From the IMG/VR virus record IMGVR_UViG_3300036860_000844, positions 1 through 43,576 of that record: 43,576 bases of DNA, one strand, 5' to 3'. Shown here piece by piece: positions 947 to 18,177 of the stretch. The notes under the pieces were generated by a model. That model searched no databases, had not been told where the DNA came from, and was given only the letters and a program-made list of their open reading frames with translations. The translations under genes and the position numbers were made by a program. Source of the DNA: a virus. The first letter of the stretch is position 1. Each line of letters opens with the position of its first letter.

Positions 947-966
947 ACTAGGAGTCAAGACCTAGT
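947..966. promoter_or_regulatory. Repressor operator upstream of the integrase (site A)
   Basis: The 20-bp palindrome ACTAGG-N8-CCTAGT has 7-bp perfect arms if one base is added on each side. On the minus strand its centre reads TCTTGACT, which supplies a -35-like TTGACT at 958-953; an 18-bp spacer leads to a weak TAGGAT that overlaps the integrase ATG. Read on the minus strand, this 20-mer matches the operator in front of the repressor (18158-18177) at 17 of 20 positions, the first 13 without a break. It also contains the stop codon of the preceding 54-residue gene. A role as a repressor operator on integrase transcription is inferred from the repetition, not demonstrated. Confidence 0.7.
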
Positions 967-1126
967 CCGAAAGCCGCGTTTCGCAGCGGCCACAGGCGTC
1001 GTACGATCGGCCATAGCAGGCCAGCAGCAGCAGGCGTCGCGTATCGGGGTCCGCGCCTGTCGGGTCCACGACTTCGAAGCGCCGCACCGGTACGTGGCCG
1101 AGGAGCCAGCAGATCAGACGCGTCAT
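962..1126 (-). CDS. 54-residue Cys-rich protein, putative zinc ribbon
   Basis: A small gene whose ATG overlaps the stop of the preceding gene by four bases (ATGA), as for most genes in this block. The product begins MTRLICWLLGH and has a Cys cluster near its end (CYGRSYDACGRC), so Cys6, Cys37, Cys45 and Cys48 could bind one zinc. Many phages carry short 'CWLxGH...CxxC' proteins of unknown role; this resembles that type. Its TAG stop lies inside the operator upstream of the integrase. No function can be assigned. Confidence 0.7.
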   Translation of the reverse strand: MTRLICWLLGHVPVRRFEVVDPTGADPDTRRLLLLACYGRSYDACGRCETRLSD

Positions 1127-1494
1127 CGCAGCGCCTTGACCCAGTAGTCGCCCTCGTCGCCCGGCGCGTGGAACTTGAACTTGTAGCGGTGCGCGAGCGA
1201 CGCGAGCCCGTCGGCCTGCGGGTGGGCGTTGTAGAGGTAGATCACGAGATCGTCGTACCCGGCGTCACGCGCGGCGCGGAGCCCTGCGCTCAGGGTCCCG
1301 AGCAGCGTGTTGTCGTTTCGGACGAACGAGATGATGTGCTCGACGAAGAACACGACACGTCCCCGCACCTTGTCGAAGTACGGGTACCCTGTGACGACGC
1401 CGGCAGGGAGGCCCGCCGGCTCGTAGGTGAAGACGGTGCGGCAGCGCGCGACGTGATAGATCCCTTTCGTCACGTCCTTCGGGAGGGGGCCCAT
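1123..1494 (-). CDS. Hypothetical protein, 123 residues
   Basis: The start ATG at 1494 overlaps the upstream stop as TGATG, preferred over an extension beginning at 1527 that would run further into the previous gene. The sequence looks globular, with alternating hydrophobic strands (GRVVFFVEHIISFV, DDLVIYLYNAH). The C-terminal half has an acetyltransferase-like rhythm (GLASLAHRYKFKFH), but no acetyl-CoA loop of the R/QxxGxG type is visible. It lies among a cupin, a probable acetyltransferase and nucleotide enzymes. Unrecognised otherwise. Confidence 0.75.
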   Translation of the reverse strand: MGPLPKDVTKGIYHVARCRTVFTYEPAGLPAGVVTGYPYFDKVRGRVVFFVEHIISFVRNDNTLLGTLSAGLRAARDAGYDDLVIYLYNAHPQADGLASLAHRYKFKFHAPGDEGDYWVKALR

Positions 1495-1835
1495 CAGATC
1501 TCCTCGTACACGTAGTACTTCTCGCACTCGAACCGGAGGACGTAGTCCTCGATGAAGTGCGCGGGGTCAGTGAGGGTGCCGCCCCAGACCGCGGGCCCCG
1601 AGCGCATGATCGCGCGCTTCATCCGGCGCAGCGGGCCGCCGCGCTCGTCGGCGTACGGCGCGCAGATCTGAGTCGAGCCATCGCGCTTGATGAGCAGCGC
1701 CTGCTTGCCGGGTCGGCGCAGCAGCCGCTCGATCTCTACCTCCAGCCTCTTCACCTTGTCCTGAAGCTGGAGGTTCGTGGTCTCGACGATTGCGACGTCC
1801 TGCGCGACTTCTCCGAGCCGTGCGCTGACGCTCAT
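1494..1835 (-). CDS. Hypothetical coiled-coil protein, 113 residues
   Basis: The ATG at 1835 overlaps the upstream stop by four bases (ATGA). Residues about 5-42 form a heptad-like segment (VAIVETTNLQLQDKVKRLEVEIERLL) predicted as a coiled coil, so the protein probably forms dimers or higher oligomers. The rest is a short globular part ending KYYVYEEI. No enzyme motif is visible, and the genes on either side give no clear hint. Confidence 0.72.
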   Translation of the reverse strand: MSVSARLGEVAQDVAIVETTNLQLQDKVKRLEVEIERLLRRPGKQALLIKRDGSTQICAPYADERGGPLRRMKRAIMRSGPAVWGGTLTDPAHFIEDYVLRFECEKYYVYEEI

Positions 1836-2242
1836 CGGAAGGGGACCTCCTTCCGGCCGTGCGTGAGCAGGACGTAGCGCTTCTCCTCGGGCAGGTACTC
1901 GGCCCAGATGTCGCGCCACGGTCCACGGAACGAGAGGACCCAGGTGCTGCCGACGCTCACGACCTTGTGGAAGGCGTCGCGGTCCGTGAAGATCCGGCGG
2001 AAGCTCGGCGTGTAGACGTTGTCGGCCGGGTGCTCGTCACCGCACGCGCAGAGCAGGTGCTCTTCGAGCCGGCCCTTCAGGACGAAGGACCACGCATTGA
2101 ACGCATGCGTGTGGTACGCCTCGCGCGAGCCGTCCTTGAAGTTCAGGAGCACGACGGAGAACAGGCTCTTGATCTCGATGAGGAACAGGCCCCAGACGTG
2201 GGACAGCATCCCGCCGTCCTTGCGATAGGAGAGGATCTTCAC
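1832..2242 (-). CDS. Cupin-fold protein
   Basis: A 136-residue protein starting at a GTG that overlaps the upstream stop as GTGA. Residues 30-110 have a cupin pattern: hydrophobic strands, YHTH (His44, His46) followed by a Gly turn (VLKGRLEEH), then a second strand pair with His92 (DAFHKVVSV). His44, His46 and His92 could form a metal site. Cupins range from isomerases to dioxygenases to simple binding proteins, so the reaction is unknown. The short tail LLTHGRKEV resembles other phage cupin-like proteins acting on small molecules. It sits beside a probable GNAT acetyltransferase, and the pair may act on a shared substrate; that link is inference. Confidence 0.65.
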   Translation of the reverse strand: MKILSYRKDGGMLSHVWGLFLIEIKSLFSVVLLNFKDGSREAYHTHAFNAWSFVLKGRLEEHLLCACGDEHPADNVYTPSFRRIFTDRDAFHKVVSVGSTWVLSFRGPWRDIWAEYLPEEKRYVLLTHGRKEVPFR

Positions 2243-2760
2243 GCAGCCTCCTTGAGCGCCGCTGCTGCGGGCTCGGGTGTCGGGCAGAGATCGCGGACGA
2301 ACATCCCGTAGCCGGGCACCGGGAACCAGACGTCGCCGGCGTAGATCCACGGGGAGTTCGCGCGCTTCGTCTCCTCGATGCAGCGCTGGTAGTGGCGCTC
2401 GTTGTCCTTATAGACCTGCACGATGGCGAGTTTGAATCCGCTCACCGCCGCGATGTCCGTGAGGAAGTTTCGGATCTCCATGCGGAACCCCCGCTTCTCG
2501 AATCTCGGGAAGATCCCGCACGCGAGGAAGACCTCGGTCGGCTCGGCGTGACTGGGAGTGAGCGAGCCCCAGCCCACGACCTCGAAGTTCTGCGCGGGTG
2601 CCGTGAACTCGTACACGGACTCCTCGCGCTTCACCCGTCGGTCAGTCGCCGACTCCCAGCCGTACGCGTCGTACATGACCTGCGCGCCGTGCGCGTGGTA
2701 GAAGCTCGCCCAGAGCGCCTGCGCTCGTTCCCGCGACATCAGGTCTGCGCGAAGCCGCAT
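2239..2760 (-). CDS. GNAT-like acetyltransferase, putative
   Basis: A 173-residue protein with an ATG at 2760 overlapping the previous stop (TAATG). The middle (about residues 75-135) has the GNAT order: a strand reporting activity (EVFLACGIFPRFEKRGF), where the FPRFEKRGF segment occupies the place of the acetyl-CoA-binding loop, then a helix (RMEIRNFLTDIAA), then a strand and N-H-x-x-x-x-R (NERHYQR) typical of the C-terminal helix. The canonical Q/RxxGxG/A is replaced by RFEKRGF, so binding may be altered. Substrate unknown; possibly modifies a host protein, a small molecule or a phage product. A second GNAT gene lies in the tail module. Confidence 0.6.
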   Translation of the reverse strand: MRLRADLMSRERAQALWASFYHAHGAQVMYDAYGWESATDRRVKREESVYEFTAPAQNFEVVGWGSLTPSHAEPTEVFLACGIFPRFEKRGFRMEIRNFLTDIAAVSGFKLAIVQVYKDNERHYQRCIEETKRANSPWIYAGDVWFPVPGYGMFVRDLCPTPEPAAAALKEAA

Positions 2761-2909
2761 TACTTCGCCCCGAATGGGAGCGGAGTGACCTCCACCTCGA
2801 ACAGCGTCGTCGCTCCATAGCGAACGTGGACCTTCGAGATCGAACCGCCCTCGTGCAGGGCGACCAGCCAGTCCTTCCACTCGACTAGCTGCACGATCTT
2901 GCTGTTCAT
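2760..2909 (-). CDS. Hypothetical protein, 49 residues
   Basis: A very short gene whose ATG overlaps the upstream stop (ATGA) and whose TAA overlaps the next ATG. The product alternates hydrophobic and charged residues (KIVQLVEWKDWLVALHEGG, then VHVRYGATTLFEVEVTPL), suggesting a small beta-rich domain. The overlaps on both sides and GC-rich third positions support it as real. No family recognised. Confidence 0.6.
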   Translation of the reverse strand: MNSKIVQLVEWKDWLVALHEGGSISKVHVRYGATTLFEVEVTPLPFGAK

Positions 2910-3160
2910 GCCCAGATCTCCGTGAGTTCGCCGAAGTGCTTCTTCCAGCCGGCGAGACAGTCGCCGCAGTGCTGCGGGTACTGGAGTTCGAGGAGCGCGT
3001 GCTCGATCGTGATGCCGCGCGTGTCGAGGATGCGCTTCAGTTCGAGAAGCTCCTTCAGACCGAACCCCGCGAGCCGGGGCTCGAAGACCTCGCGCAGCCA
3101 CGGGTCGATGTGCAGCTTCGGTCGCTGCAGATTGAAGACGTCGGCGTTGTCGCTCGGCAT
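2906..3160 (-). CDS. Hypothetical protein, 84 residues
   Basis: The ATG at 3160 overlaps the dNMP kinase stop by one base (TGATG). The product is mostly helical (LKELLELKRILDTRGITIEHALLELQ) and ends with a CGDC motif (HCGDCLAGWKKHFGEL) that could bind a metal or form a redox pair. Its coupling to the nucleotide kinase suggests co-translation but does not prove a shared role. Unrecognised. Confidence 0.68.
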   Translation of the reverse strand: MPSDNADVFNLQRPKLHIDPWLREVFEPRLAGFGLKELLELKRILDTRGITIEHALLELQYPQHCGDCLAGWKKHFGELTEIWA

Positions 3161-3873
3161 CAGATCCCGCCTCGGCCGCGGAGCGCGCGGACCGCGTTGA
3201 CCTCGTCCGTCGTGCGGAGGATGTCGTCGTGCGACTCGCGGGCCTTGAACGCGAACGGCGTTGCTCCGGCCGGGACGTCTCTGGCGACGCCATCGGGCGG
3301 CAGGTCCCAGCGCATCGGGCCCACGACCTCGTCGAGGTGGACCCAGACCGACTGCTCCAGATCCGCGATCGACCCGTCGTTGATAAAGACGTTGTCGAAC
3401 CCCTGGTAGACATCGACGAACGTCTCACTGGAGTGCGTCGAGTCCGGCGTCGGCGCGTTGGGGCGCACGACCTTCCAGATCTGCGAGCCCGAGAAGAGGC
3501 GGATGTAGTGGGCCTCGTTCTCGAACCGGACGTCAGGCACCACGACGCGCTCGTGCTGACGCGCGACCTTGTGCCAGAGCTTCGTCCAGTACTCGGGGTC
3601 GTCGCCCCGCCGGACCTCGGTGCCGTACTCCTGCAGAAGCTCGCGCACGCCGGCCGGCTTGATCGAGCGGACTAGCGCATCGATCGGCAGCGTCTCGTCG
3701 TAGCCGTTCAGCATCCCGAGAACGCGCAGCGTGCGGGGCAGGCGCTCGACGAGTTCCTGCTTCAGCGCGTCGCTCATCCGCACGATCACGTACCCGTGCT
3801 CGCGCACGAGGTAGTTCGCGATCACGTCCTTGCCATGACCGATCTTGCCGCTGATGCCGACGACCTGGGTCAT
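3160..3873 (-). CDS. Deoxynucleoside monophosphate kinase
   Basis: A 237-residue P-loop enzyme that would phosphorylate dNMPs to dNDPs to feed phage DNA synthesis. Residues 6-16 (GISGKIGHGKD) form the Walker A loop. LLQEYGTEVRR (about 79-89) and VVVPDVRFENEAHYI (about 110-124) are the segments that define the phage dNMP kinase family (T4 gp1/T5 type), with the Asp-Arg pair near the monophosphate. About 60 residues after position 175 form an extension of unknown use. The ATG overlaps the upstream stop (ATGA). Its neighbour two genes upstream is a nucleoside deoxyribosyltransferase-like protein, so both may serve nucleotide supply or salvage of host nucleotides. Confidence 0.85.
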   Translation of the reverse strand: MTQVVGISGKIGHGKDVIANYLVREHGYVIVRMSDALKQELVERLPRTLRVLGMLNGYDETLPIDALVRSIKPAGVRELLQEYGTEVRRGDDPEYWTKLWHKVARQHERVVVPDVRFENEAHYIRLFSGSQIWKVVRPNAPTPDSTHSSETFVDVYQGFDNVFINDGSIADLEQSVWVHLDEVVGPMRWDLPPDGVARDVPAGATPFAFKARESHDDILRTTDEVNAVRALRGRGGI

Positions 3874-4130
3874 GCTCCACCTCCGTACGACCAGCCGCGC
3901 GGCATCTCGTCGAGTGCTCCAGCGGCGGCGATCGCTTGTTCTGCCGGCATCGGTGCCGGGGCCGGAGTCGGTGTCGGTGCGGACGTCGAGGGCGTCGCGA
4001 TGTCGCCCTCGATCGTGAGATGGACGTCGCCCGCGTCGAACTTGAACGCCTTCACGGCGCCGCTGAACCCGAGAGCGCGCGCTAGCTCCTCGGTCGTGAC
4101 GACGACGTTGTGCGTGCTCTTGATCTTCAT
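3870..4130 (-). CDS. Hypothetical protein with Pro/Ala-rich linker, 86 residues
   Basis: The ATG at 4130 overlaps the upstream stop by four bases. Residues 1-43 form a small ordered domain (VVVTTEELARALGFSG, then VHLTIEG). A low-complexity linker rich in Pro, Thr and Ala follows (about 46-62), then a short tail. The ordered part resembles a mini helix-turn-helix (TTEELARALGFSGAVKAF), but is too short for a firm call. It lies between the deoxyribosyltransferase-like and dNMP kinase genes. Confidence 0.65.
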   Translation of the reverse strand: MKIKSTHNVVVTTEELARALGFSGAVKAFKFDAGDVHLTIEGDIATPSTSAPTPTPAPAPMPAEQAIAAAGALDEMPRGWSYGGGA

Positions 4131-4552
4131 GCGGCCTCCTTCGTGAGCGCGTCGAGCACGTCGTCCCAGGACAGGAAGTGCCGGTCGACGAGCGTGAGGA
4201 AGATGTTCTTGCCGTGCGTCCAGCGCGGGCCGACTGACCAGACCCTCGGCGAGTTCTTCCAGAACCGAAGCGCGAGCCCGGCGCCGTACTCGGACTCGCG
4301 CCCGCCGCGCCGGGTCGGACCCTCGGTGTCGACGATGATGAGATCCGCGCACACGACCTCGAACAGGTCGCGCTGCGCCTCCTTCAGCGCCTCGTCCTCG
4401 GCGACCTCGACCGGGATCGTGCTGTCATTGGTGACGTCGGTCTTGTCGAGCCACGTCGAGATCACGGTCCCGAGCCCGAGCCTGTGGATACGATCGCGCT
4501 CGTGGCGCAGTCGCTCGTTCGCTGAGAACTTCGCGGCGATGTAGATCCTCAT
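4127..4552 (-). CDS. Nucleoside 2-deoxyribosyltransferase-like protein
   Basis: A 141-residue protein starting MRIYIAAKFSA, the typical first strand and loop of the nucleoside 2-deoxyribosyltransferase / DUF4406 superfamily. A second strand CADLIIVDTEG (about 70-80) and the active-site-like segment GGRESEYGAGLAL (about 84-96), where a Glu sits before Gly-x-Gly/Ala, agree with the family. Members swap or hydrolyse the base of (deoxy)nucleosides or nucleotides. The ATG overlaps the upstream stop by four bases, which argues for this start. With the dNMP kinase it suggests nucleotide salvage or use of an unusual base; the substrate cannot be told from sequence. Confidence 0.75.
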   Translation of the reverse strand: MRIYIAAKFSANERLRHERDRIHRLGLGTVISTWLDKTDVTNDSTIPVEVAEDEALKEAQRDLFEVVCADLIIVDTEGPTRRGGRESEYGAGLALRFWKNSPRVWSVGPRWTHGKNIFLTLVDRHFLSWDDVLDALTKEAA

Positions 4553-7284: not shown

Positions 7285-7285
7285 C

Positions 7286-8434
7286 CTATTCGTCCTCCTC
7301 ATCGCCGCGAGTCCAGCGCTGCTCGTTGAACCAGAGCGGGCGCTTCTCATCGCGCACGAGATCCACGACGTGCCCCTTCTCGGAGCGGTGACGGTTCTTC
7401 TTCACGACGATCGAGACGGGGTCGTCCTCGGTCTTGCCCCCGACCATGTGGAATCCGAACCACGCGGAGTACTCGACCTCGCCGGTCTCCTTGCCGAGCT
7501 TCGAGGTGGCGGTGCCGTACGTGGCGCGGTCCTTCTCGGAAAGCGCGAGGACCATGTAGCCGTCCTTCGCCCAGTCCTCGAACCGACGGAGCCAGGACTC
7601 CAGCGACTCGCGCTTGTGATCGACGCGGGTCGGGAGCTTCTGCAGCGGGTCGATGACGATCAGCGCCGGCGGCTTGTGCGCCTGGATGAACGCCGGGATC
7701 TCCGTCGTGAACCCGCGCATGTCGACGTAGCGGATGCGCTTCGCCGCCTTCGGGTACTTGTCCTTCGGTAGCTGGCGCTGCAGTCGGTAGCGCATGACGC
7801 GCTTCGAGTTCTCGGCGTCGCAGTACGCGACCGGCCACTTGTGCTTACCGGCGGCGATGGCTGCGATCTGCAGCGCGAGCGTCGACTTGCCGGCGCCGGG
7901 ATCGCCGGCGATGACCCAGAACCCCATGAGCCCGCCGCTCGCCTTCGAGATCTTCTTCAGCGGGCCGAGGTCGGGGCCCTCCGGTGCGTCCTCCACGTCC
8001 TCGGCGAAGAGCGTGGGGTCCTCGTCGTCCTCAGTCTCGATGCGGATCGCGTTCTGCAGCGCGGCCGGGTCGAGCTTCGACTCGCCTAGCTGCCGGCTGG
8101 CCTCGTTCATCAGGGTCACGAGGGCCTGCCGCTGACGGACGGCGCGGAGGATCTCGCGTGCGCCCTCCGGTTCGAGCCCGGCCATCTTCTTCAGGAACGG
8201 CCGGATGACCTCGGGCTCGGCGCCCTCTTCCTCGGCCATCGTTGCGACGGCCTGGAGCGTGAGCTTCTTGTCCTTCTTCGAGCCGAGCTTCTTGATCGCG
8301 AGGTGCAGCCACTGCGCCTCACGCCCTAGCTCGGCCTTCTCGACGACGTCGACCGGGACCTCGCCCCGCATCATCGCGACGAGGAGCATCCGCTCCAGGG
8401 CGGGGGAGAGCGCGGCGATCGGCTGCTGCTTCAT
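7286..8434 (-). CDS. DnaB-like replicative helicase / RecA-fold ATPase
   Basis: A 382-residue ATPase of the DnaB/RecA superfamily that would unwind DNA at the phage fork. Residues 1-140 resemble the DnaB N-terminal helical domain; an acidic linker (ETEDDEDPTLFAEDVED) follows. The motor domain carries Walker A GDPGAGKST (about 177-185), Walker B ALIVIDPLQ (Asp262) and later segments GYMVLALSEKDRA and IVVKKNRHRSEKG, comparable to helicase motifs 3 and 4. The ATG at 8434 overlaps the nuclease stop by four bases. It lies with a Toprim primase-like gene and a polymerase, so the phage carries most of its own replisome. No separate helicase loader is recognised. Confidence 0.88.
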   Translation of the reverse strand: MKQQPIAALSPALERMLLVAMMRGEVPVDVVEKAELGREAQWLHLAIKKLGSKKDKKLTLQAVATMAEEEGAEPEVIRPFLKKMAGLEPEGAREILRAVRQRQALVTLMNEASRQLGESKLDPAALQNAIRIETEDDEDPTLFAEDVEDAPEGPDLGPLKKISKASGGLMGFWVIAGDPGAGKSTLALQIAAIAAGKHKWPVAYCDAENSKRVMRYRLQRQLPKDKYPKAAKRIRYVDMRGFTTEIPAFIQAHKPPALIVIDPLQKLPTRVDHKRESLESWLRRFEDWAKDGYMVLALSEKDRATYGTATSKLGKETGEVEYSAWFGFHMVGGKTEDDPVSIVVKKNRHRSEKGHVVDLVRDEKRPLWFNEQRWTRGDEEDE

Positions 8435-9150
8435 GCGTTCCCGTCGGTCGGCTTCGCCTCCATCCGACGCCAGACCTTCCACGCTTCGAGCGCGGCCTTG
8501 AAGTCATCGATCGTGTACTCGCGCGGCACGACCTTGACCTCGGGCTCGCCGCCCTCCTTCGGCAGGCGCACGATCACGCCGTACGCGGACGGCATCTTCA
8601 TGCGCTTCGCCATATGGCGGTACGCGACGTTCTGCAGGAAGGCCTCGGGGTAGATCCGGTTGCCGGTCTTCCAGTCGAGCAGGAAGCGCCGGCCCTTGCG
8701 GTCCTCGCCGTAGAAGTCCATCGTCCCGGCGACGCGCAGGTCGTCGTCGTGCAGCGTGCGCTCGGTCCCGAGCGGCTTGATGCCCTCGCTCCGGAACCAG
8801 TCGCGGCAGGACTCGAAGCACTTCCGCGCTTCGCCTTCGAGCACGGGCCGATCACCGACCTGCAGCCCGAGCTTCTTGCGGAGCACCCACTCGATCGCCG
8901 CGTGCGCTTGGTTGCCGATGTTGACGGCCTTCTCCAGCGTCTCCTTCGCGGCCTTCTTGTTTTCGAGGATGAGCTTCGCCGCTGCCTTGCCGGTCGTGCA
9001 GCCGGCGGCGAGCTTCGCGTCGGTCTCGCGCTGCTGCTTCGCGTACCAGTACTGAAGTGCCGGCTTGCTGAACACCGACAGGACCGTCGTGACCGACGGG
9101 TACTGGCGATCGTTGATGTTGTAGAACCGTGCCTCGTCCTTGAACGCCAC
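8431..9150 (-). CDS. PD-(D/E)XK nuclease, Cas4/RecB-like exonuclease
   Basis: A 239-residue nuclease. The core motif is visible as AGTMDFYG (Asp145) followed 14 residues later by LLDWKTGN (Asp159, Lys161), with an upstream His83 (NQAHAAIE) and a downstream Q in FLQNVAYR, the order of RecB/Cas4-type exonucleases. There is no Cys cluster for an iron-sulfur site, unlike true Cas4. The start is a GTG at 9150 preceded by AGGAG at six bases; a GTG 24 codons upstream lacks a ribosome site. It probably acts in recombination or host DNA breakdown. It is four-base coupled to the helicase. Confidence 0.87.
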   Translation of the reverse strand: MAFKDEARFYNINDRQYPSVTTVLSVFSKPALQYWYAKQQRETDAKLAAGCTTGKAAAKLILENKKAAKETLEKAVNIGNQAHAAIEWVLRKKLGLQVGDRPVLEGEARKCFESCRDWFRSEGIKPLGTERTLHDDDLRVAGTMDFYGEDRKGRRFLLDWKTGNRIYPEAFLQNVAYRHMAKRMKMPSAYGVIVRLPKEGGEPEVKVVPREYTIDDFKAALEAWKVWRRMEAKPTDGNA

Positions 9151-9810: not shown

Positions 9811-9909
9811 TTACTCGCCGCGGAGTTTGCGGCGGATGCAGCGCGGACACTCCCAGAGGTGAGCGTCTTCACGCCAGCGCATCGCGATCTTGCAGATGAA
9901 GCAGATCAT
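9811..9909 (-). CDS. 32-residue zinc-ribbon microprotein
   Basis: A tiny gene whose ATG overlaps the DNA polymerase stop (ATGA). The product has two CxxC pairs, CFIC at residues 3-6 and CPRC at about 22-25, spaced like a minimal zinc ribbon, followed by a basic end (RRKLRGE). It is translationally coupled to the polymerase and may assist replication or regulation; its role is unknown. Confidence 0.65.
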   Translation of the reverse strand: MICFICKIAMRWREDAHLWECPRCIRRKLRGE

Positions 9910-12677
9910 TCGGCAGCCCAGACAGGGCCGCGTGCGACATCGACGCCGAGCGGGATCTTGAACTTCGGTACCAGCGCGCGGAGCGTCGGAACCGCGCGCA
10001 TCGTCTCCACGATGATCTCTTCGTCTCGCTTCGCGGAGCGCGGATGGAGATCGTTCACGAGCGAGTCGTGAACCTCGTTGATCGGCAGCGCGAACTTCGG
10101 CCAGTCCCGCTTGAGCAGCGCCGCGTGGTAATCGACGAGCGACATCTTGTGCTCCTTCAGGAGCGTGGACTCGATGTCGATGAGCGCCGACCCCGTGACC
10201 GCGGAGGCGAGGTGCTGCGTGCGGACGTTCGCGGCCTCGTTCGCCGTGTGCCAGAACCCAGGCGTGTCCCGTCCCTCGGGACACGGGAGATGCCGGACGT
10301 AGCCCGTCTCACAGACGATCTGCTGCGTCTCCAGCACCTCACGTACGCGCTCCTCCTGATAGCGCCGCAGCCGCGGGAACTTCTCGTGGTACCGTTCGAG
10401 GATCGCTGCCGTCTTGCGCTCGTGCTCGTCGTACTTCTTCGCGAGCCGGACCTGAAGCTGGTACCAGAGCTTCCAGGCCATCTTCGGCGCACGCATCCGG
10501 TAGTTCGAGCCGAGCACCGCCTCCTTCACGACGCGGTACTCGATGGTGCCCTTCTCGTACTCCTTGCCGAGAAGCTCCTTCGCCACGAGCAGGTAGCCGG
10601 ACTTCTTCGGGTGCGTGAAGTACTCGAACAGCTTCTCGTCTCGCGCCTGCCACGCGATGAGGACTACTTCGAGGGACTTGTAGTCCGCGTTGAGGACGAG
10701 ACCCTTCGGCCAGCGCGAGCGGATGATCCGGCGCGCTTCCTTCGGCCAGTTCTGGGAGTTCGTAGCTGACATGGAGTCAGCGTCATCCCTTCCAGAAGAA
10801 CGCCGCGCAGTGCGCGCGCCATGCGCTCGCAGTCGGAAACGCAGGAGGCCAAGATCGTCTGTGACTCGCTCGACAGTATCGATAAGCGGGGGCGCGGTCG
10901 TCTTGCGGTCCTCGCTGCCGTACCACGTCGAGAGCATCTTGTGCGACTTCTTGAACTCGACGAGGTGCTTGACCTCTGGGACATGCGCGTACTCCTTCAG
11001 CAGGGTCTTGTCGACCTGGGGCAGGCCAGTCGAGGTCTTCGCCAGCGGCTTCAGCTTCAGCTTCTTGAAGAGCAGCACACGCAGGTGATCGGTGTTCGTC
11101 GGGACGAACTCCTCGATCCGGTGCTTCGCTGCCGCGCGTTCGAGTAGCTCCTTCGTCCGGTTCGCTTCGGCCTGCAGCCGCTTGCCCATCCCGTGCAGCG
11201 CCTTCATGTCGACGAACGCGCCGGCGAGGTAGATCCGATGCAGAGACATCGCGACGCGATGCACGAACTCGACGTACTCCCGGCGCGGGAGGTTCGGCTT
11301 GAAGTGCTCCGCGAGTACGGCCGAGGCCCAGGCATCGAGGCGGCATCTTTGTGCGCGCTGCTCGGGGGTCCATTCGGCCGCCGTTCCGCCGTCGTCGAGG
11401 ATCTTCTGCGTGTCCTCTTTCCACGGCTCGACGTTCTTCTCGGAGAGCAGGAGGTTGTCGAGCTTGAAGGTGCCGCGCACCTCCTGACCGCTCACCATCC
11501 CGCGGTTCTCATCGACGAACTTAGCGAGGAGCAGCGAGTCGCGGACCTTCTGACCGCTGACCCACTCCTCTCGACCGAGCCCGAGCGCGACGATCTGATC
11601 GACGTCGCCGTCGACCGAGTGCCCGAGCAGGACGCGCGCCGTGAACGGTTCCTTCAGGCGCTCCTTCAGCGCCTCGAACTCCTTCGTCCCGACGTCAGCG
11701 GCTATCGCGTACTTCGTATCCGCGAGCCCCAGCGTGAGTAGCTTGTCGCCGACGTACTCGGTGTCGACCGAGACCACGTCGTCGTTGGGCTCGCGCAGCT
11801 TCGGGTAGGACAGCACGGGCAGATCGAAGCGCTTCATGTCGGCCACGACGTACTCGCGTAGGTGCGCGTTGCCCTCGTCGAGCAAGGTCGCCGTATCGTA
11901 CGTGGCGTACACCGTCGGCACGTAGCTCGCCGCCGCGGGTAGGCCTACGTCGAACTTCATAGCCGCGACGCCGGCGACCTCCAGCTTCCGACCGCGGAGA
12001 TGCACGAGCGCCGGCGCGGTCCGGTTGAGGATCGCTCGTGCGGCTGAGTCGCCCATCGCGAGCACGCCCTTCGGTTGCCAGCGCTGGAGCACGCCGAGCA
12101 GGAACGGACGGCACATGCGGATCTGCGCCATCGTCGGGCGCTTCGTCTCGCTGCGGGCCCAGGCCGGCGGCCGATCGCCCTGCACCTTGTGGTCGGAGCC
12201 TCCGCATCGGAGAGCGAACGCGATAGCGACGTCCTCGCGCTCGTAGCCCGCCTCCTTCATGAGCCGGCGAAGCAGCCGGCCCTCGGCCTCGGCCCACGGG
12301 GAGTCACCATCGAGCGGGGCCTCGACCACGACGAGGAGCTTCCGCGTCCAGTCCTGCGGAATGAACGGTCGCACGAACGCCGACGCGCACGTCTCGTGGA
12401 GCGCGCAGTGGTTGCAGAGCCCTCGCTCCTTGCCGGCCTCGCCCTGCTTCAGCGGAACGATCGAGAGCGCATTGAGCGTCTGCTTCTTCGCGTCCTTCTT
12501 CGGCGACTCGTACTTGTACTCCGTCTTCGCCTTCTCGGGCGCGGCCCAGGAGTTCTTGAAGTCCGGCACCGACCCCGTCGCGCCCTTAAGGCGGCCGGGC
12601 TCGTGCTCGCCCTTGTGCTTCGCGGGGAGCTTGCACTCCCAGTCGATCGTTCCGGGGCAGAGCTTCTTCACCGCCAT
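9906..12677 (-). CDS. Family A DNA polymerase with N-terminal UDG-like domain
   Basis: A 923-residue replicative polymerase. Residues about 85-280 match the uracil-DNA glycosylase superfamily: CNHC (88-91), VVVEAPLDGD and a downstream GRLL, then RMCRPFLLGVL and VLAMGDSAARAIL. The usual catalytic signatures are changed (GEAPG becomes VEAPL, the late HP motif reads TYDTA), so it is probably not an active glycosylase. Residues about 300-455 form the 3'-5' exonuclease (VDTE, Asp305 and Glu307; Asp356/358; Asp448). The palm follows: motif A NADYKSLE (Asp665), motif B VVKEAVLGSNY (about 717-726) and motif C EVHDSL (His870-Asp871, with Ser replacing the common Glu). The ATG at 12677 has GGAGG upstream and overlaps the HNH gene by ten bases; longer in-frame starts run through that gene. 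Confidence 0.93.
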   Translation of the reverse strand: MAVKKLCPGTIDWECKLPAKHKGEHEPGRLKGATGSVPDFKNSWAAPEKAKTEYKYESPKKDAKKQTLNALSIVPLKQGEAGKERGLCNHCALHETCASAFVRPFIPQDWTRKLLVVVEAPLDGDSPWAEAEGRLLRRLMKEAGYEREDVAIAFALRCGGSDHKVQGDRPPAWARSETKRPTMAQIRMCRPFLLGVLQRWQPKGVLAMGDSAARAILNRTAPALVHLRGRKLEVAGVAAMKFDVGLPAAASYVPTVYATYDTATLLDEGNAHLREYVVADMKRFDLPVLSYPKLREPNDDVVSVDTEYVGDKLLTLGLADTKYAIAADVGTKEFEALKERLKEPFTARVLLGHSVDGDVDQIVALGLGREEWVSGQKVRDSLLLAKFVDENRGMVSGQEVRGTFKLDNLLLSEKNVEPWKEDTQKILDDGGTAAEWTPEQRAQRCRLDAWASAVLAEHFKPNLPRREYVEFVHRVAMSLHRIYLAGAFVDMKALHGMGKRLQAEANRTKELLERAAAKHRIEEFVPTNTDHLRVLLFKKLKLKPLAKTSTGLPQVDKTLLKEYAHVPEVKHLVEFKKSHKMLSTWYGSEDRKTTAPPLIDTVERVTDDLGLLRFRLRAHGARTARRSSGRDDADSMSATNSQNWPKEARRIIRSRWPKGLVLNADYKSLEVVLIAWQARDEKLFEYFTHPKKSGYLLVAKELLGKEYEKGTIEYRVVKEAVLGSNYRMRAPKMAWKLWYQLQVRLAKKYDEHERKTAAILERYHEKFPRLRRYQEERVREVLETQQIVCETGYVRHLPCPEGRDTPGFWHTANEAANVRTQHLASAVTGSALIDIESTLLKEHKMSLVDYHAALLKRDWPKFALPINEVHDSLVNDLHPRSAKRDEEIIVETMRAVPTLRALVPKFKIPLGVDVARGPVWAAE

Positions 12678-12958
12678 CTCCGTCTGCCTCCGTCCGACCC
12701 GTTGCACCCGCGGCACAGTAGCCGCACCAGTCCTCGCGTCCACTCGTCGCGGTATCGCTTGAGCCGCTCGAACTGGCTGACCGCTCTCGGTTGCCAGGAG
12801 CGGCCGAAGGGATGGTCGAACTCCAGATCGTCGATCTCGTCGCAGTGCGCGCACCTGCCGCCCATCTCCTCGATGAGCGCCCAGCGGTCGCGGTGGTACT
12901 GCTCTAGTCGCTTGAGGTGATGCCTGCGCTGCGGCGTGAGTACAGCGACATCAGACAC
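12668..12958 (-). CDS. HNH endonuclease
   Basis: A 96-residue protein with an HNH fold bound to structural zinc: CAHC (about 36-39), LEFDHPFGR with the catalytic Asp-His, and LCRGCNG (about 81-87) giving the second Cys pair and the Asn. It would nick or cut DNA. Free-standing HNH genes next to polymerase genes can be homing endonucleases or repair/packaging nucleases. The N-terminal 30 residues are helical and basic (RRHHLKRLEQYHRDRW) and may bind DNA. It overlaps the primase stop by eight bases and the polymerase start by ten, so it is embedded in the replication operon. Confidence 0.82.
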   Translation of the reverse strand: MSDVAVLTPQRRHHLKRLEQYHRDRWALIEEMGGRCAHCDEIDDLEFDHPFGRSWQPRAVSQFERLKRYRDEWTRGLVRLLCRGCNGSDGGRRRWR

Positions 12959-14075: not shown

Positions 14076-14377
14076 CAGACGACGACTCCCTTCTCGGTCC
14101 GCGCCTCCAGGCGCAGCACCGGCTTGCCGTTCTTCGTGTCGACGCCGAACACGACGTCGTGCGTCTTCGCCGGCGCCGCGATCAGCCGGGCGAAGTGCTT
14201 CGCGCGGAGCCGCTTCCCCGCCGTGTTGCGGACGCCCTTGCGCTGCCGCGGACCATCGCTGCGGCCCTTGCCGCCGTGCTTCTTGCGACGGCCCTCGATC
14301 TTCTTCTTGCGCCGTGCCTGCGAGCGTGTGTAGACGCCGTCGACTTTCGTCTCGACCGTCGTCTCCACCGTCTCCAT
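14075..14377 (-). CDS. Very basic protein, 100 residues
   Basis: The ATG at 14377 overlaps the upstream stop (TGATG). After an acidic start, residues about 16-60 are dense in Arg and Lys (SQARRKKKIEGRRKKHGG, RQRKGVRN), then comes a short globular end (HDVVFGVDTKNGKPVLRLEA). Likely a nucleic-acid or ribosome-binding protein; small basic early proteins can act as host inhibitors. Not recognised. Confidence 0.65.
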   Translation of the reverse strand: METVETTVETKVDGVYTRSQARRKKKIEGRRKKHGGKGRSDGPRQRKGVRNTAGKRLRAKHFARLIAAPAKTHDVVFGVDTKNGKPVLRLEARTEKGVVV

Positions 14378-14691
14378 CAGATCGCCGCCAGTCGGGCGGC
14401 GTGTTTCGGGCAGCCGCTGCGGAAGTTCGGAACACCGCAAGTGCAGGTCAGCAGGCGCTGGTACTCGGGCGACGCTTCGAGTTCGGCCCACTGCGCGGCG
14501 AACTGCTCGCGCGCATCGCGGCGCGCCCGTGCGTCGTTGCCGACACGCTGGCGGGCGGCGATGGAGGCGAGCGTATCGAGCGCAGCCGCGAGGGTAGCGC
14601 GAACACGCGCCGCTGTGGAGAGCATCTGCTCTCCCTCGCTCAGTTCCGCGCGCTGCTGCGCTGCGAACTCGGTGTAGCTGTACGTCTTCAT
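14377..14691 (-). CDS. Helical protein with a C-terminal Cys cluster, 104 residues
   Basis: The ATG at 14691 overlaps the previous stop by one base; a GTG one codon earlier is less likely. Residues 10-70 are Ala-rich helices (AAALDTLASIAARQRVGNDARARRD). The end, CTCGVPNFRSGCPKH, holds three Cys and a His that may bind zinc. Unknown function. Confidence 0.65.
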   Translation of the reverse strand: MKTYSYTEFAAQQRAELSEGEQMLSTAARVRATLAAALDTLASIAARQRVGNDARARRDAREQFAAQWAELEASPEYQRLLTCTCGVPNFRSGCPKHAARLAAI

Positions 14692-15083
14692 CACGCCACC
14701 TCCGTCGCGGTCAGCGATTGACGCGTGAACTTCGGCCGATTCGCGCGGTCGAACTCTTCACCGCCCACCTCGCCGATGCACTTGAAGACGTCCCATCGGC
14801 GGGCGTACTTTCGGTAGTCGTCCTTAAGAGCGGTCACCCACCGATGGAGGTACTTCTCGTGATCGACCGTCAGACCGATCTCGTGGTACGTGATCGAGAT
14901 CTCGACGCGATGCACGCGGTCGGGGTCGGCATCGAGCGCCTCGCGCTCGTGCTTCTCGGCCCAGGCCTCGCCTACCGGCTGATAGGCGTTCTCCAGCACC
15001 TCGTGGCAGGTCCGGCATCGGGCGCGGACCCGGTTGACCGGGCTGCAGATCGTGACGCCCTGAAGCTCCTCAGCAGCCTGCAT
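14691..15083 (-). CDS. Hypothetical protein, 130 residues
   Basis: Overlaps the sigma factor 3' end by 14 bases; its ATG is preceded by AAGGAGG. Near the start there is CRTCHEVLENAY, a CxxC that could be half a metal site, then a mixed alpha/beta domain (VHRVEISITYHEIGLTVDHEKYLHRWVTALKDDYRKYARRW). Immediately following the sigma factor, it is a candidate partner or anti-sigma factor by position only; no ZAS motif (HxxxCxxC) is seen. Confidence 0.68.
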   Translation of the reverse strand: MQAAEELQGVTICSPVNRVRARCRTCHEVLENAYQPVGEAWAEKHEREALDADPDRVHRVEISITYHEIGLTVDHEKYLHRWVTALKDDYRKYARRWDVFKCIGEVGGEEFDRANRPKFTRQSLTATEVA

Positions 15084-15615
15084 AGCCGGCCTCCTTGTCT
15101 TGTTGCACTCCCTGTGACACCGCCGAGGGGGTCTCGCGGGACATCAGTTCCTGCGTGAGCAGAGGCCACCACTTCCGCTGCACCTCCTTCTTGAGCGCCT
15201 CGAAGGGGCGACCTAGCTCCTCCCCGACCGCCTCCCAGGTCTCGCCCTCGACGTACACGGCCCAGATCGCACGCCGTGCGTGCTCGGGGAGCTTCGAGAG
15301 CGCACGCTCGACATCGACCTTGAGCACGAGATCCTCTTCGTTGATGACCCGCGGCGGATTCCGATCGAGGTACTCGGCCTCGTGATCGAGTGCGCGGGTA
15401 GAGGTACGGAGCGCGTTCTGTGCGGTGTTCTGCACGGCCGTCGTAAGCCATGCCTCGATGTCCTTGACGTCGCGCTTCCACTGGCCGCCCGCGAAGGCGT
15501 CCTCGATCGCCCGCTGCACGACATCCTCGGCGTCACGGCCGACGAGATTCGCTGCCACCTTCAGCAGGCGCGGGCGTTGCGCCTCGACCGCCTGCTCGAA
15601 CTGCGTCCTGTTCAT
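15070..15615 (-). CDS. ECF-like RNA polymerase sigma factor
   Basis: A 181-residue protein built like an ECF (group 4) sigma factor, carrying regions 2 and 4 only. Region 2 lies at about 8-72: RLLKVAANLVGRDAEDVVQRAIEDAF (region 2.1-2.2, which binds the polymerase beta' clamp), then WLTTAVQNTAQNALR (region 2.4, which reads the -10). Region 4 lies at about 100-150: ALSKLPEHARRAIWAVYVEGETWEAVGEELG and the recognition helix EALKKEVQRK. It would redirect host RNA polymerase to phage promoters. The ATG follows GAGGAG and a 110-base leader, so it may have its own control. Residues 159-170 (SRETPSAVSQGV) are encoded by DNA repeated at 19113. Sigma identity is probable; its target promoters are not known. 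Confidence 0.75.
   Translation of the reverse strand: MNRTQFEQAVEAQRPRLLKVAANLVGRDAEDVVQRAIEDAFAGGQWKRDVKDIEAWLTTAVQNTAQNALRTSTRALDHEAEYLDRNPPRVINEEDLVLKVDVERALSKLPEHARRAIWAVYVEGETWEAVGEELGRPFEALKKEVQRKWWPLLTQELMSRETPSAVSQGVQQDKEAGYAGC
15111..15144 (-). repeat. 34-bp dispersed repeat, sigma-gene copy
   Basis: Read on the minus strand, these 34 bases match 19113-19146 on the plus strand at 31 positions. Here they encode MSRETPSAVSQ near the sigma factor C-terminus. Confidence 0.8.
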
Positions 15616-15662
15616 AGACAGACTCCTCGCGATGGGGATCTGAGCCCCTGACTTGTGCTGCG

Positions 15663-15680
15663 CCGGCGTACAGACGCCGG
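15663..15680 (-). other. Hairpin in the leader of the sigma factor gene
   Basis: In the 111-base gap between the upstream gene and the sigma factor, CCGGCGT-ACAG-ACGCCGG forms a perfect 7-bp stem with a 4-base loop. A second weaker GGGG/CCCC hairpin lies at 15634-15648. Neither is followed by a U-run on the minus strand, so they are not classical terminators; they may slow transcription or protect the sigma message. Confidence 0.45.
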
Positions 15681-15726
15681 GCGTAGTACGTGAGCGGTCT
15701 ACTGCTCTACGAGACGCGGAGGAGTG

Positions 15727-15969
15727 CTACGCGGGGGGAGCGTCAGTGCGGACGGCAGAGTACTTCGCGGAGTGAATCGACGACAGCACCGGGCGCAGAC
15801 GCGGAGCCGGTGTCGGCGGCACGCGCGACTCGCGCGCCTGCCATATATGGAACCGGCCGAGCGCGGCCGCCGTCTTGCGGAGGATCTGCAGAGCGCGTCG
15901 GCTCTGCATCGCCTCCGGCAGGCGAAGGTACGCTTGATACGAGGCCCAGGCCGTGAGCGAGATCGTCAC
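15727..15969 (-). CDS. Hypothetical protein, 80 residues
   Basis: Starts at a GTG overlapping the upstream stop (GTGA); an ATG far upstream would cover two other genes. Residues 4-48 are helical (WASYQAYLRLPEAMQSRRALQILRKTAAALGRFHIW), and the C-terminus is Pro-, Ser- and basic-rich, probably disordered. It closes the first coupled group of genes; the 111-base leader of the sigma factor follows. Unrecognised. Confidence 0.65.
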   Translation of the reverse strand: MTISLTAWASYQAYLRLPEAMQSRRALQILRKTAAALGRFHIWQARESRVPPTPAPRLRPVLSSIHSAKYSAVRTDAPPA

Positions 15970-16157
15970 TTCTTCAGCATCCTGTCCGCGAGCCAGTGCT
16001 CGCGCGCCGTCAGGTGCGCCGCGTAGCTCTTCACGAGATACTCGGCGTCCTTGATCGCTTGCGTACGGTCGAGGGTCTTGCCGTCCTCCGACTGCGCGAC
16101 GCGAAGCGAGCGAAGCTCGCGGAGCGCGTCGAGGTACCGGTCGAGGTTCTTGCTCAT
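15966..16157 (-). CDS. Helical protein, 63 residues
   Basis: ATG overlapping the upstream stop (ATGA). The product is a likely all-helical coiled coil (NLDRYLDALRELRSLRVAQ, then AIKDAEYLVKSYAAHLTAREHWLADRMLKK). No motif recognised; coupled on both sides. Confidence 0.65.
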   Translation of the reverse strand: MSKNLDRYLDALRELRSLRVAQSEDGKTLDRTQAIKDAEYLVKSYAAHLTAREHWLADRMLKK

Positions 16158-16435
16158 CGTCCGTCCTCGCAGTAGAAGTACTTCCCGAAGACCTCACGCT
16201 CTTCGTCCGAGCCTCCGTACCGGAAGAGATCCCGCATCGTGTCTTCCCAGCCCTCATGCGAGCGACGCGCGCATGCCTCGCAGATCTCCCTCTTCTTCGG
16301 GTACGGACCGTGCTCATCAGTCACGAAGCTAACCGTCTTCACGAGTCGGCCGCAGAGCGTCCTCGCTGGGCCGACGGTGCGCCACCACTTCCCGCCGGTG
16401 TTAATGTCGCGGAAGTGCGTCCTCGGATAGCTCAT
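16154..16435 (-). CDS. Cys-containing protein, 93 residues
   Basis: The ATG at 16435 overlaps the upstream stop (ATGA). Cys residues in TLCGRL, ICEACARR and FYCEDGR, together with nearby His, may form a treble-clef-like metal site (C...CxxC). The start MSYPRTHFRDINTGGKWWRT looks like a small beta-rich domain. Early small zinc proteins of phages often bind host factors or DNA; no evidence is specific here. Confidence 0.65.
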   Translation of the reverse strand: MSYPRTHFRDINTGGKWWRTVGPARTLCGRLVKTVSFVTDEHGPYPKKREICEACARRSHEGWEDTMRDLFRYGGSDEEREVFGKYFYCEDGR

Positions 16436-16611
16436 GCCGTCGCTCCCTGGAACGCCTGCAGCGGCATCGCTGTCAGGTGGTAGAGCTTGCAGCGCGGGCA
16501 CTCATACGCGCGGCACGGGACCTTCGCGGTCCAGGCGCGGACCGAGCGCATCGGAGCCCGCAGCGCTCGCTCGGCCTCGCCCTTCGTGAGGAACCCCGTC
16601 TTGCCGCACAT
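16432..16611 (-). CDS. 59-residue zinc-ribbon protein
   Basis: A short gene with AAGGAGG nine bases before its ATG. The C-terminal half reads VPCRAYECPRCKLYHLT, close to the common phage pattern 'YxCPxCxxWHLT', in which the Cys and His bind one zinc. The N-terminal half is helical and basic. It begins the four-gene coupled group after the hairpins that follow the DUF932 gene. Role unknown, probably nucleic-acid or protein binding. Confidence 0.7.
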   Translation of the reverse strand: MCGKTGFLTKGEAERALRAPMRSVRAWTAKVPCRAYECPRCKLYHLTAMPLQAFQGATA

Positions 16612-16635
16612 CTCGCACCTCCTTGGCCTCGTCAG

Positions 16636-16673
16636 GCACCGCGTTACGGTGCTACGCCGGGGCGCGGGCCCCG
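16636..16673 (-). terminator. Tandem hairpins after the DUF932 gene, possible attenuator
   Basis: The 72-base gap between two leftward genes holds GCACCG-CGTTA-CGGTGC (16636-16652) and CGGGGC-GCGG-GCCCCG (16658-16673), two perfect 6-bp GC-rich stems. There is no T-run after them on the minus strand, so intrinsic termination is uncertain. They could reduce expression of the downstream genes relative to the first three. Confidence 0.4.
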
Positions 16674-16683
16674 ACGTTTCGGC

Positions 16684-17421
16684 CTAGTTCGCGCCGAAAC
16701 CGAACGCCCTCCCGAGATCCGTGAGCGTGCGGAATTGCGACGACGGCGCGAGCGCCTTGACGGCGCGCGTGCAGGCGTTGTGGAGCCCCCACGTCGTGCG
16801 GGGCGCGCTGTCCTCGTACCCCAGCGTCTCAGCGCGGAAGTAGTTCGTGGCGGCCTCGTCGTAGATCGAGACCGGCAGCACTCCGTCGTAGCGGAGATCG
16901 AAGAGCCGGACCTTCGCCTCATCGTCCGTGACTCGATGATTCTCGGCCTCGATGATCTGGGCATTGAACCGGCGGAACCCGTCGAGGAAGCGGCCCAGGC
17001 CCTCACGAATGACGTGCGCGAGTTGCAGCGCACGCGAGTGCTTGCGGAGCGCGATCTTCTCGCCGGAGAGCGCGAGGTTGTCGCACACGAACACGCGAGC
17101 GCCACCGACTAGCTGGATCGAGAGCGCCTTGTCGTTCGAGTGCCGCAGACCGAGCGCCATGCCGCGGTCCGCGCCCTCCCAGCCGAGGTCCAGCGTGCCG
17201 AAGAGCGCGAGCCCCTCCTTGCCCACGGCATACTGCTCGCGGCGGATGTTGAGCCCGAGCTTCCCGACCTGATCGACGACGGTGCCGACGAGTTCAGCGT
17301 GCGCGACCGGACGCCACGTCGAGGTGCCGACAGGCGGCGCGAAACGCGCGAGGCCTGCGCGGTCCACGATCTCGCACTTGAACTTCGGGTTGTGCGCGAC
17401 GAGTGTGCTGTTCTGTTCCAT
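16684..17421 (-). CDS. DUF932 family protein
   Basis: A 245-residue member of the phage/plasmid DUF932 family. Recognisable segments are MALGLRHSNDKALSIQLVGGARVFVCDNLALSGE (about 88-121) and ALRKHSRA, matching the family pattern 'LGLRNSxDKS...GxRVFVCDNLxFSGE...RKHT'. The function of the family is not established; it is common on mobile elements and early in phage genomes. The ATG at 17421 is preceded by AGGAGG. It is the third gene from the leftward promoter and the largest of the first group, so it is likely made early. Confidence 0.8.
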   Translation of the reverse strand: MEQNSTLVAHNPKFKCEIVDRAGLARFAPPVGTSTWRPVAHAELVGTVVDQVGKLGLNIRREQYAVGKEGLALFGTLDLGWEGADRGMALGLRHSNDKALSIQLVGGARVFVCDNLALSGEKIALRKHSRALQLAHVIREGLGRFLDGFRRFNAQIIEAENHRVTDDEAKVRLFDLRYDGVLPVSIYDEAATNYFRAETLGYEDSAPRTTWGLHNACTRAVKALAPSSQFRTLTDLGRAFGFGAN

Positions 17422-17425
17422 TGTG

Positions 17426-17605
17426 CTAGTCCTCCTGGCGCTGTGATCGCAACCAGTCGATCTGTGCTTGCGCCTCGGGTACGCGCTTGACGATGGAGCG
17501 GAGGCAGCGCTCGCACGTCGTGTTGAAGATCTGCTCGGTGACGTTCGTGCTCAGAGTACGGCAGAGCGGAGAGCCAGAGACGCTGAGATGAATCGGACGC
17601 GCCAT
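17426..17605 (-). CDS. 59-residue protein with a Cys pair
   Basis: The ATG at 17605 overlaps the previous stop by one base. The middle has CERCLRSIV (CxxC) with another Cys earlier (PLCRTL), a possible partial zinc site, followed by a helix (PEAQAQIDWLRSQ). The second gene from the leftward promoter. Not recognised. Confidence 0.65.
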   Translation of the reverse strand: MARPIHLSVSGSPLCRTLSTNVTEQIFNTTCERCLRSIVKRVPEAQAQIDWLRSQRQED

Positions 17606-17817
17606 CACAGCACCCGCACGCGCAGCCCGTCGTTGGCTGCGCCTTCGATGATGGCGCCGATAAAGCGGTGCTCGACCGCGACAGCGCGGCCGAAGTAGGC
17701 CCACGGCTCCGCGTTGACGTGCTCGTTGAGCCACTCGCGAGCAGCGGGGGTGAGCGGGCGGAACAACCAAACGCTGCCGTGGTTCTCTGCCTCGAAGTGA
17801 ACGGTGCGGTCTTCCAT
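17605..17817 (-). CDS. First leftward gene, 70-residue conserved phage protein
   Basis: The first gene after the leftward promoter, with a strong AAGGAGG ribosome site. The product (HFEAENHGSVWLFRPLT, then REWLNEHV and AVEHRFIGAIIEGAANDGL) resembles a small protein seen in many phages of Proteobacteria, whose function is unknown. The pattern of two short strands and two helices suggests a compact single domain. Being first in the early operon it may counter a host function. Confidence 0.78.
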   Translation of the reverse strand: MEDRTVHFEAENHGSVWLFRPLTPAAREWLNEHVNAEPWAYFGRAVAVEHRFIGAIIEGAANDGLRVRVL

Positions 17818-17839
17818 CTCTTCCTCCTTGGAGTATCGA

Positions 17840-17873
17840 CCTAGCGACGTAATGCTAGGCGTACTATCCTAGT
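17840..17873. promoter_or_regulatory. Double operator at the leftward promoter (site B)
   Basis: Three half-sites are evenly spaced every 14 bases: CCTAGC (17840-17845), GCTAGG (17854-17859) and CCTAGT (17868-17873). The right pair forms GCTAGG-N8-CCTAGT, the same layout as the sites near the integrase and repressor; it fits between the -35 and -10 of the leftward promoter. The left pair forms the inverse arrangement and covers the transcription start. A repressor bound here would block the early operon. Confidence 0.7.
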
Positions 17874-17880
17874 AAGTCAA
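17852..17880 (-). promoter_or_regulatory. Leftward early promoter
   Basis: On the minus strand, TTGACT (17880-17875) is separated by 17 bases from TAGCAT (17857-17852), a good sigma-70-type promoter. The start would fall near 17845, about 28 bases before the first ATG and upstream of its AAGGAGG. It is the only obvious strong promoter for the forty leftward genes and is overlapped by operators. Confidence 0.65.
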
Positions 17881-18157
17881 CACAGAAAGTGCGTGTCGTG
17901 TAAATACGTAAATCTTCAGGCTGAATTGCCTGTCACGATGCTGACGGCGCCGCCCGCCGTCATGCGATCATCTCTGCGTGTTGCAGCGCGCGAGCCAAAG
18001 TGGGGAAAAAGTTATCCACATCCAATTCACGGGAAACGCGCGCGAGCTTCGTAGTCGAAGGGAGATCGTCCTGAACAGATCGCGACCGAAGTGGACGAGC
18101 AGTCCACGCCGTCATGACACGGACGCACGGTGTCGAGATCGTGACTGCGCCAGAGGA
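17881..18157. other. Divergent control region with a DnaA box, candidate origin
   Basis: No convincing gene lies here. The segment is less GC-rich than its surroundings. An AT-rich stretch at about 17900-17917 contains GTAAATAC followed by GTAAAT; CAGGC-TGAATT-GCCTG forms a 5-bp stem at 17917-17932; and a perfect DnaA box TTATCCACA lies at 18012-18020. An AT-rich unwinding region plus a DnaA site between divergent operons fits a replication origin, but one box is few for a DnaA-driven origin. Confidence 0.45.
18012..18020 (+). promoter_or_regulatory. Perfect consensus DnaA box
   Basis: TTATCCACA is the strongest form of the bacterial DnaA recognition site. In GC-rich DNA it is expected rarely by chance, and this copy is in the one region between the divergent operons. 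Confidence 0.6.
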
Positions 18158-18177
18158 ACTAGGTCTTGACACCCAGG
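18158..18177. promoter_or_regulatory. Repressor operator at its own promoter (site C)
   Basis: ACTAGG-TCTTGACA-CCCAGG has one perfect and one degenerate half-site of the same operator type. It contains the TTGACA -35 of the repressor promoter, so binding would shut off the repressor gene itself (autoregulation). It shares 13 contiguous bases with the integrase-side site read on the minus strand. Confidence 0.65.

Follow-up and report, generated by a model that had tools for sequence, protein, structure and literature searches.

Can a temperate phage hold its integrase, its early genes and the gene of its repressor under a single DNA-binding domain of 69 residues? This question is raised by IMG/VR virus record IMGVR_UViG_3300036860_000844, analysed here over a stretch of 43,576 bases (66% G+C; hereafter the window), in which similar palindromes lie in front of the integrase gene int, at the promoter of the leftward operon (P_L) and at the promoter of a short gene of the XRE family. 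The sites, the candidate promoters, the genes and their arrangement were read from the sequence (Table 1). They point to an XRE repressor that probably has operators on P_L, on the int promoter (P_int) and on its own promoter (P_rep), and that would repress the early operon, int and itself.

Table 1. Features of the window discussed in the text (a dot in the strand column, no strand assigned)
Feature	Coordinates	Strand	Remarks
OI, exact palindromic candidate operator	947..966	-	ACTAGGAGTCAAGACCTAGT; centred on int promoter -35
OL1, exact palindromic candidate operator	17854..17873	.	GCTAGGCGTACTATCCTAGT; between P_L -35 and -10
OL2, imperfect candidate operator	17826..17845	.	about +1 to +20 of P_L, reaches the Shine-Dalgarno (SD) sequence
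OR, candidate operator	18158..18177	+	ACTAGGTCTTGACACCCAGG; one half good, the other poor; centred on -35 hexamer
P_int candidate	929..958	-	TTGACT-18-TAGGAT, TG before -10
P_L candidate	17852..17880	-	TTGACT-17-TAGCAT; predicted start near 17845
P_rep candidate	18166..18194	+	TTGACA-17-TAAACG, weak -10
XRE protein, 69 residues	18202..18411	+	DNA-binding domain alone; HTH_3 E 2e-11
Tyrosine integrase	1..930	-	PF00589 E 6.2e-25; left end of window
First leftward-operon gene, 70 residues	17605..17817	-	without family match
Phage sigma factor, leftward arm	15070..15615	-	PF04542

Candidate operators and the promoters they occupy

The results showed that the exact pattern RCTAGG-N8-CCTAGY occurs in the window only at OI and OL1, and in none of 30 dinucleotide shuffles of the window. 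A sequence-only reading had named three such palindromes; two of them are exact, but the third, OR, carries two mismatches and a single good half. The likeness it had reported between OI, reversed, and OR (13 contiguous bases, 17/20 overall) was reproduced, and it extends to 25/29 over 938-966 and 18158-18186. A match of 25/29 between the int and repressor intergenic regions was equalled by two out of 3000 random segment pairs and by no region shuffle out of 3000; for 17/20 alone the shares were 4.1% (random pairs) and 0.4% (shuffles), with 3000 of each. When 20-mers were simply compared, the 17/20 of the int and repressor regions was found in 0/997 random pairs of that smaller size.

The half-site noticed earlier at 17840 is real, but it is only half of a whole imperfect site, OL2, whose N8 spacing is alike. 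With a directed matrix built from OI and OR only, OL2 was the best non-training site on both strands of the window; a symmetric matrix with the same training ranked OL2 sixth and OL1 eighth, and a matrix from OL1 alone placed OI first and OL2 second. Leave-one-out matrices gave ranks of 1 (OI), 2 (OL1), 1 (OL2) and 1 (OR) among the non-training positions. On these sequence grounds, the window likely holds four operators.

To locate promoters, hexamers were searched with at least 5/6 matches at -35 and a -10 starting with TA and matching 3/6. Four rows were obtained, three of which have TTGAC[A/T] and correspond to P_int, P_L and P_rep, the fourth (13336, minus strand, TCGACA) being weaker. The two strands of the window together hold a single TTGACA and two copies of TTGACT, and each of these hexamers is the -35 of one promoter candidate and lies inside or beside operator sites. 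The earlier placements of OL1 between -35 and -10 of the leftward promoter and of OR over the repressor -35 were both correct: OL1 fills the spacer of P_L, TTGACA stands at the centre of OR, OI is likewise centred on a -35, and OL2 runs from about +1. A stricter scan of the whole window listed two promoters, both among these three and both with an operator, and did not list P_rep; the numbers expected by chance were 1.8, 1.3 and 0.2 in three stretches. The number of promoters is unremarkable, and it is their coincidence with operators that is remarkable.

The palindromes might still have been picked by eye from a long sequence. A consensus scan with up to three mismatches, proposed earlier as a check, proved non-discriminating (32 matches, where shuffles gave 37.4 on average), recurring dyads with 5-bp arms are common in the window (54 words with at least two A/T, against 20-42, mean 27, in 30 shuffles), and the 17/20 match is, as given above, not rare among random pairs. 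Against such an origin stand the absence of the exact pattern from the shuffles, the recovery of OL2 by a matrix untrained on it, the coincidence of the sites with all three TTGACA/TTGACT hexamers and the rarity of the 25/29 match, and we consider chance extremely improbable. At two mismatches or fewer there were six matches, namely the four operators and two sites inside long open reading frames (ORFs), at 8311 and 38806. There is thus good support for the proposal that int, the leftward operon and the XRE gene are joined by a common operator, with sites on all three TTGAC[A/T] promoter candidates and a fourth site recovered by matrix.

The promoter positions also bear on the starts of two genes. 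The int start is more likely ATG 891, which has an SD-like GGAGG upstream, because ATG 930 sits inside the -10 of P_int; in the related phage described below, the int ATG shows by eye the SD spacing of ATG 891 in the alignment. The predicted start of P_rep is close to the GTG, so the repressor mRNA is perhaps leaderless. Two other roles of OI were rejected. As an attachment core with inverted arms it is disfavoured since the other sites match it and the attachment site (att) probably lies beyond int, the record beginning at the int stop codon; as a terminator it is disfavoured since a terminator scan lists none there.

The XRE protein and known phage repressors

The XRE protein scores 44.2 bits with the HTH_3 profile against a curated cut-off of 23, which places it among XRE/HTH_3 regulators. 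Its closest relative in the PDB is the N-terminal domain of P22 C2 (E 1.8e-12); the alignment spans residues 6-65 and leaves no space for a second domain, and the GTG start was read from it. This DNA-binding domain (PDB 2r1j, 3jxb, 1adr) is the closest solved sequence relative, and the recognition-helix stretch reads vssglvskwern in the XRE protein and vsnvaisqwers in P22 C2. The full P22 C2 has a C-terminal domain, unlike the XRE protein, which stops after the DNA-binding domain, and the P22 operator differs from that of the window. From the adjacency of gene and sites, the fold family and the site at its own promoter, we infer that the 69-residue protein would bind these sites.

The arrangement was compared with known types of switch. 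A C-terminal oligomerisation or self-cleavage domain, as in CI of the lambda/P22 type, is absent from the XRE protein, whose ORF stops after 69 residues. Another mark of CI systems, a set of homologous palindromic operators at adjoining divergent promoters, was found (OL1, OL2 and OR, 17826-18177), OR being a poor palindrome. ImmA (Peptidase_M78), which would mark an ImmR/ImmA-type switch, was found in 0/2 records, the window and its relative, both of them possibly incomplete. An operator outside the immunity region, as in multi-operator systems like that of phage BPs, is represented, judging by sequence, by the single distant site OI at int.

As described in PMC4557955, BPs gp33 is a short repressor (103 residues) with an operator in the -10/-35 spacer of its early lytic promoter and another near its own promoter. 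Further operators lie in small intergenic regions, five regulatory regions being bound; an operator there pairs a 12-bp palindrome with a second half that varies; a single promoter serves both repressor and int, attP being within the repressor gene; and a reporter test showed no regulation of Prep. The window differs from BPs in that int has a promoter and an operator of its own, and in its dyad, RCTAGG-N8-CCTAGY. Among the literature examined, BPs appears to be the nearest described parallel. In that literature, mostly outside subscription journals and partly in excerpts, we recognised no separate int promoter under an immunity repressor's operator, which is not a claim of absence.

The small size of the protein raises another reading, in which it binds the sites as a Cro- or Apl-like lytic regulator lowering P_L and int, and in which the maintenance repressor is another, unrecognised protein. 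The 69 residues include neither an oligomerisation nor a cleavage domain, the XRE gene heads the rightward arm on the strand of the late genes, and 186 Apl acts both at att and between early promoters. On the other side, a Pfam scan of 44 distinct ORFs, out of 263 listed in the window, matched no DNA-binding regulators besides the XRE protein and the sigma factor; the HTH_3 match is unique to the XRE protein, and no second HTH regulator was found. The related phage likewise carries a single HTH_3 protein at that place. Moreover, the window sites are palindromes, whereas the Apl sites are described as direct repeats. We regard a purely lytic role as unlikely and keep to the XRE protein as the repressor itself.

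A related phage and the palindromes of other phages

IMGVR_UViG_3300045968_000201 (hereafter G001) is the sole related phage found with the integrase of the window. Its int, TerL and XRE proteins are 51%, 44% and 44% (27/62) identical to those of the window, gene order is kept, and a sigma factor lies in the leftward arm on the matching strand; the DNA polymerase of the window has no match in G001, which has its own family A polymerase. Six G001 promoters were located by hexamers, five of which have a common spacer (19862, 19086, 18664, 7025 and, at int, 5843), the sixth, at 11812, being without it. This spacer element of five leftward promoters, TACGCG-N4-CGCGTA-like, differs from RCTAGG-N8-CCTAGY; it appeared only after the promoters had been located, and TTCGCG was picked by eye as the anchor of the alignment. 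When each spacer was left out in turn, the ranks were 13, 1, 1 and 1, and the int spacer ranked 1 of 61,120 with a matrix from the four other leftward spacers, so the linkage of int to the leftward promoters recurs with another element. When the three clearest palindromes were used to build a symmetric matrix, these training sites ranked 1-3, an unrelated position (26779) 4, int 5 and 19862 6. G001 thus supports a shared element at int and the leftward promoters, though a different one and so far not clearly at the repressor promoter.

Further repeats were seen in G001. Near 15863, 15087 and 14665 on the minus strand of its locus L007, the spacer element and a stretch after the -10, TCGYGTAGTC, are repeated at three promoters, two of which also share AATCCAACAACGCG behind TCGYGTAGTC, forming a repeated promoter-leader cassette. 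At the int start (locus L004, 5015-5034), two perfectly inverted 8-bp arms, TCGTTGGG and CCCAACGA, flank an AGGA loop that holds part of the SD; the ATG follows just downstream, and translational control is possible.

To find the operator elsewhere, viral contigs were searched with ACTAGGTCTTGACNCCNAG, which gave no relatives, and with the looser CTAGGNNTTGACNCCTAG, which gave 30 stretches, 24 in other records and 6 in records taken for cluster J mycobacteriophages. These six were taken for Omegavirus: Wanda (100% DNA match) and, putatively, LittleE, Courthouse, Redno2, Thibault and MiaZeal; where the literature does not supply the cluster J label for these records, it is presumed by us. The name is applied to Omega, LittleE, Courthouse and Thibault in PMC3706429. 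Five of the six records hold one to three exact copies of CTAGGTGTTGACACCTAG, and the sixth has one copy with a change; in Wanda (locus L144 = 92000-109960) exact copies lie at 11231, 13407 and 16407 and copies with one mismatch at 8655, 15246 and 17538. The Omegavirus right-arm promoters have CTAGGTGTTGACACCTAG with the -35 at its centre and, by eye, an ATG right after the -10. The likeness to the window consists in CTAGG-N8-CCTAG centred on TTGAC and repeated at promoters. The words "promoter" and "palindrom" have no match in the text of PMC3706429, and in a literature search by letters the full 18-mer of the cluster J palindrome was in no paper among the matches listed.

The idea that the recognition helix recurs in cluster J repressors was considered and rejected. 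The gap between gp100 and gp101 of Wanda (58905-59183 of the record) has no copy of CTAGGTGTTGACACCTAG at up to 5 mismatches, and neither gp100, the annotated immunity repressor, which gives a short local match of 27 residues only, nor gp101 is a close relative of the XRE protein.

These palindromes are relevant to a third reading, in which the shared elements are bound by another factor: the integrase on its own promoter, a host regulator, or RNA polymerase itself, the elements being plain promoter elements. In cluster J phages, CTAGGTGTTGACACCTAG marks promoters of the right arm, and the Wanda immunity region lacks it; for the same cluster, an inverted repeat where int starts has been raised as a possible means of integrase autoregulation (PMC3706429); and the likeness of OI and OR runs across the -35 and beyond. 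By contrast, OL1 and OL2 match OI away from any -35 hexamer, the different spacer element of the G001 promoters speaks against an invariant signal of the host or the polymerase, and the probable position of att beyond int is also unfavourable. Another factor is in our view quite improbable, and the XRE protein remains the preferred binder.

Other searches concerned relatives of single genes. In the phage collection, the integrase matched 29 records and the XRE protein 16, all at less than 60% identity; int matched two loci of genome contigs at 26%. One XRE relative (L003) has 43% identity, and weak matches were L079, L027 and L071. The first leftward gene and the DNA polymerase had no relatives in viral contigs. 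TerL relatives were taken as the best 80 of 556 loci, and the records of 46/80 were searched for integrase and HTH_3, which were found in 3/46 (2 above cut-off) and 5/46, respectively; the two with a clear integrase were dropped as a comparison, their layout being different and an HTH_3 match lacking. In a separate observation, the 18-mer CTAGGCTTTGACACCTAG is common to L102, L119, L121, L123 and L124 (G+C 0.31-0.49), several copies lying within longer inverted repeats, and it may be an unrelated hairpin element.

Gene content and the regulatory model

Stop codons stand at both exact ends of the window (TCA..., ...TAG), as would be the case for a prophage cut at gene borders. The leftward arm encodes a DNA polymerase, a helicase, an exonuclease and the sigma factor, and downstream of the XRE gene a terminase and rightward ORFs follow. 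An excisionase of the HTH_17 family had no match in the window or G001. The 982-residue frame at 9906-12854 (minus) joins a family A DNA polymerase to an upstream domain of the uracil-DNA-glycosylase superfamily, and a deoxynucleotide monophosphate kinase homologue lies at 3160-3873 (minus; PF21448 E 9.2e-14). A 44-nt inverted repeat (89%; 15106-15149 and 19108-19151) corresponds to near-identical ORF beginnings, translated by eye as MSRETPSAVSQ.. (minus) and MSRDPPSAVSQ.. (plus, ORF 19113-19457), and the minus copy overlaps the end of the sigma gene.

The stricter scan found no sigma-70-like promoter in 20001-43576, where 1.5 were expected by chance, and late expression may rely on the phage's own sigma factor. 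The claim that one repressor governs all three key decisions of the phage was in this respect overstated.

Several points weigh against the XRE repressor as the common controller. OR is a poor palindrome and the -10 of P_rep is weak. When 20-mers are simply compared, the P_L region is not linked to either the int or the repressor region: the best match, 14/20, was equalled by 32% and 38% of 997 random pairs each. The case for the P_L sites therefore depends on exact consensus, matrices and promoter geometry. The exact operator was present in 2/94 loci compared, both being cuts of the window. A plain comparison of the int, leftward and repressor regions of G001 gave nothing (P 0.55-0.99), and the best site near its repressor promoter ranks 88 with the three-site matrix. 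Small ORFs are mostly without a family match, and another regulator could hide among them. Lastly, the cluster J case advises caution, since a palindrome of this sort on a -35 is not necessarily an immunity operator and can serve another factor.

With these points weighed, the XRE repressor remains the probable reading, and binding, repression, the ranking of affinities and the late role of the sigma factor are what we infer from the arrangement. The XRE protein would bind as a dimer to RCTAGG-N8-CCTAGY. It would close P_L through OL1 in the -35/-10 spacer and OL2 at the start site, close the separate int promoter through OI on its -35, and limit its own synthesis through the weaker OR on its own -35. 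The early genes and int would thereby be silent together in the prophage state. When the repressor is lost, or has not yet accumulated after infection, P_L would yield the replication genes and the phage sigma factor, and P_int the integrase. Beyond this, we tentatively suggest, as a possibility about which we are doubtful, that the phage has no more than three promoters of host type, each closed by the one 69-residue domain, that other expression proceeds through its own sigma factor, and that operators are replaced among relatives with the wiring kept.

The switch would be of a familiar kind, and the XRE protein a putative new member of the multi-operator phage repressors. If it is an ordinary one, the analysis still gives a clean annotation of the switch. 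For an uncultivated lineage of temperate phages in which int would be co-controlled, it yields a defined operator, its four sites and a candidate repressor of very small size. The different element at the matching promoters of G001 offers a case for asking how change in a repressor is matched across the whole set of its operators and, if the reading of operator turnover is true, would represent a natural coordinated replacement of operators at every promoter.

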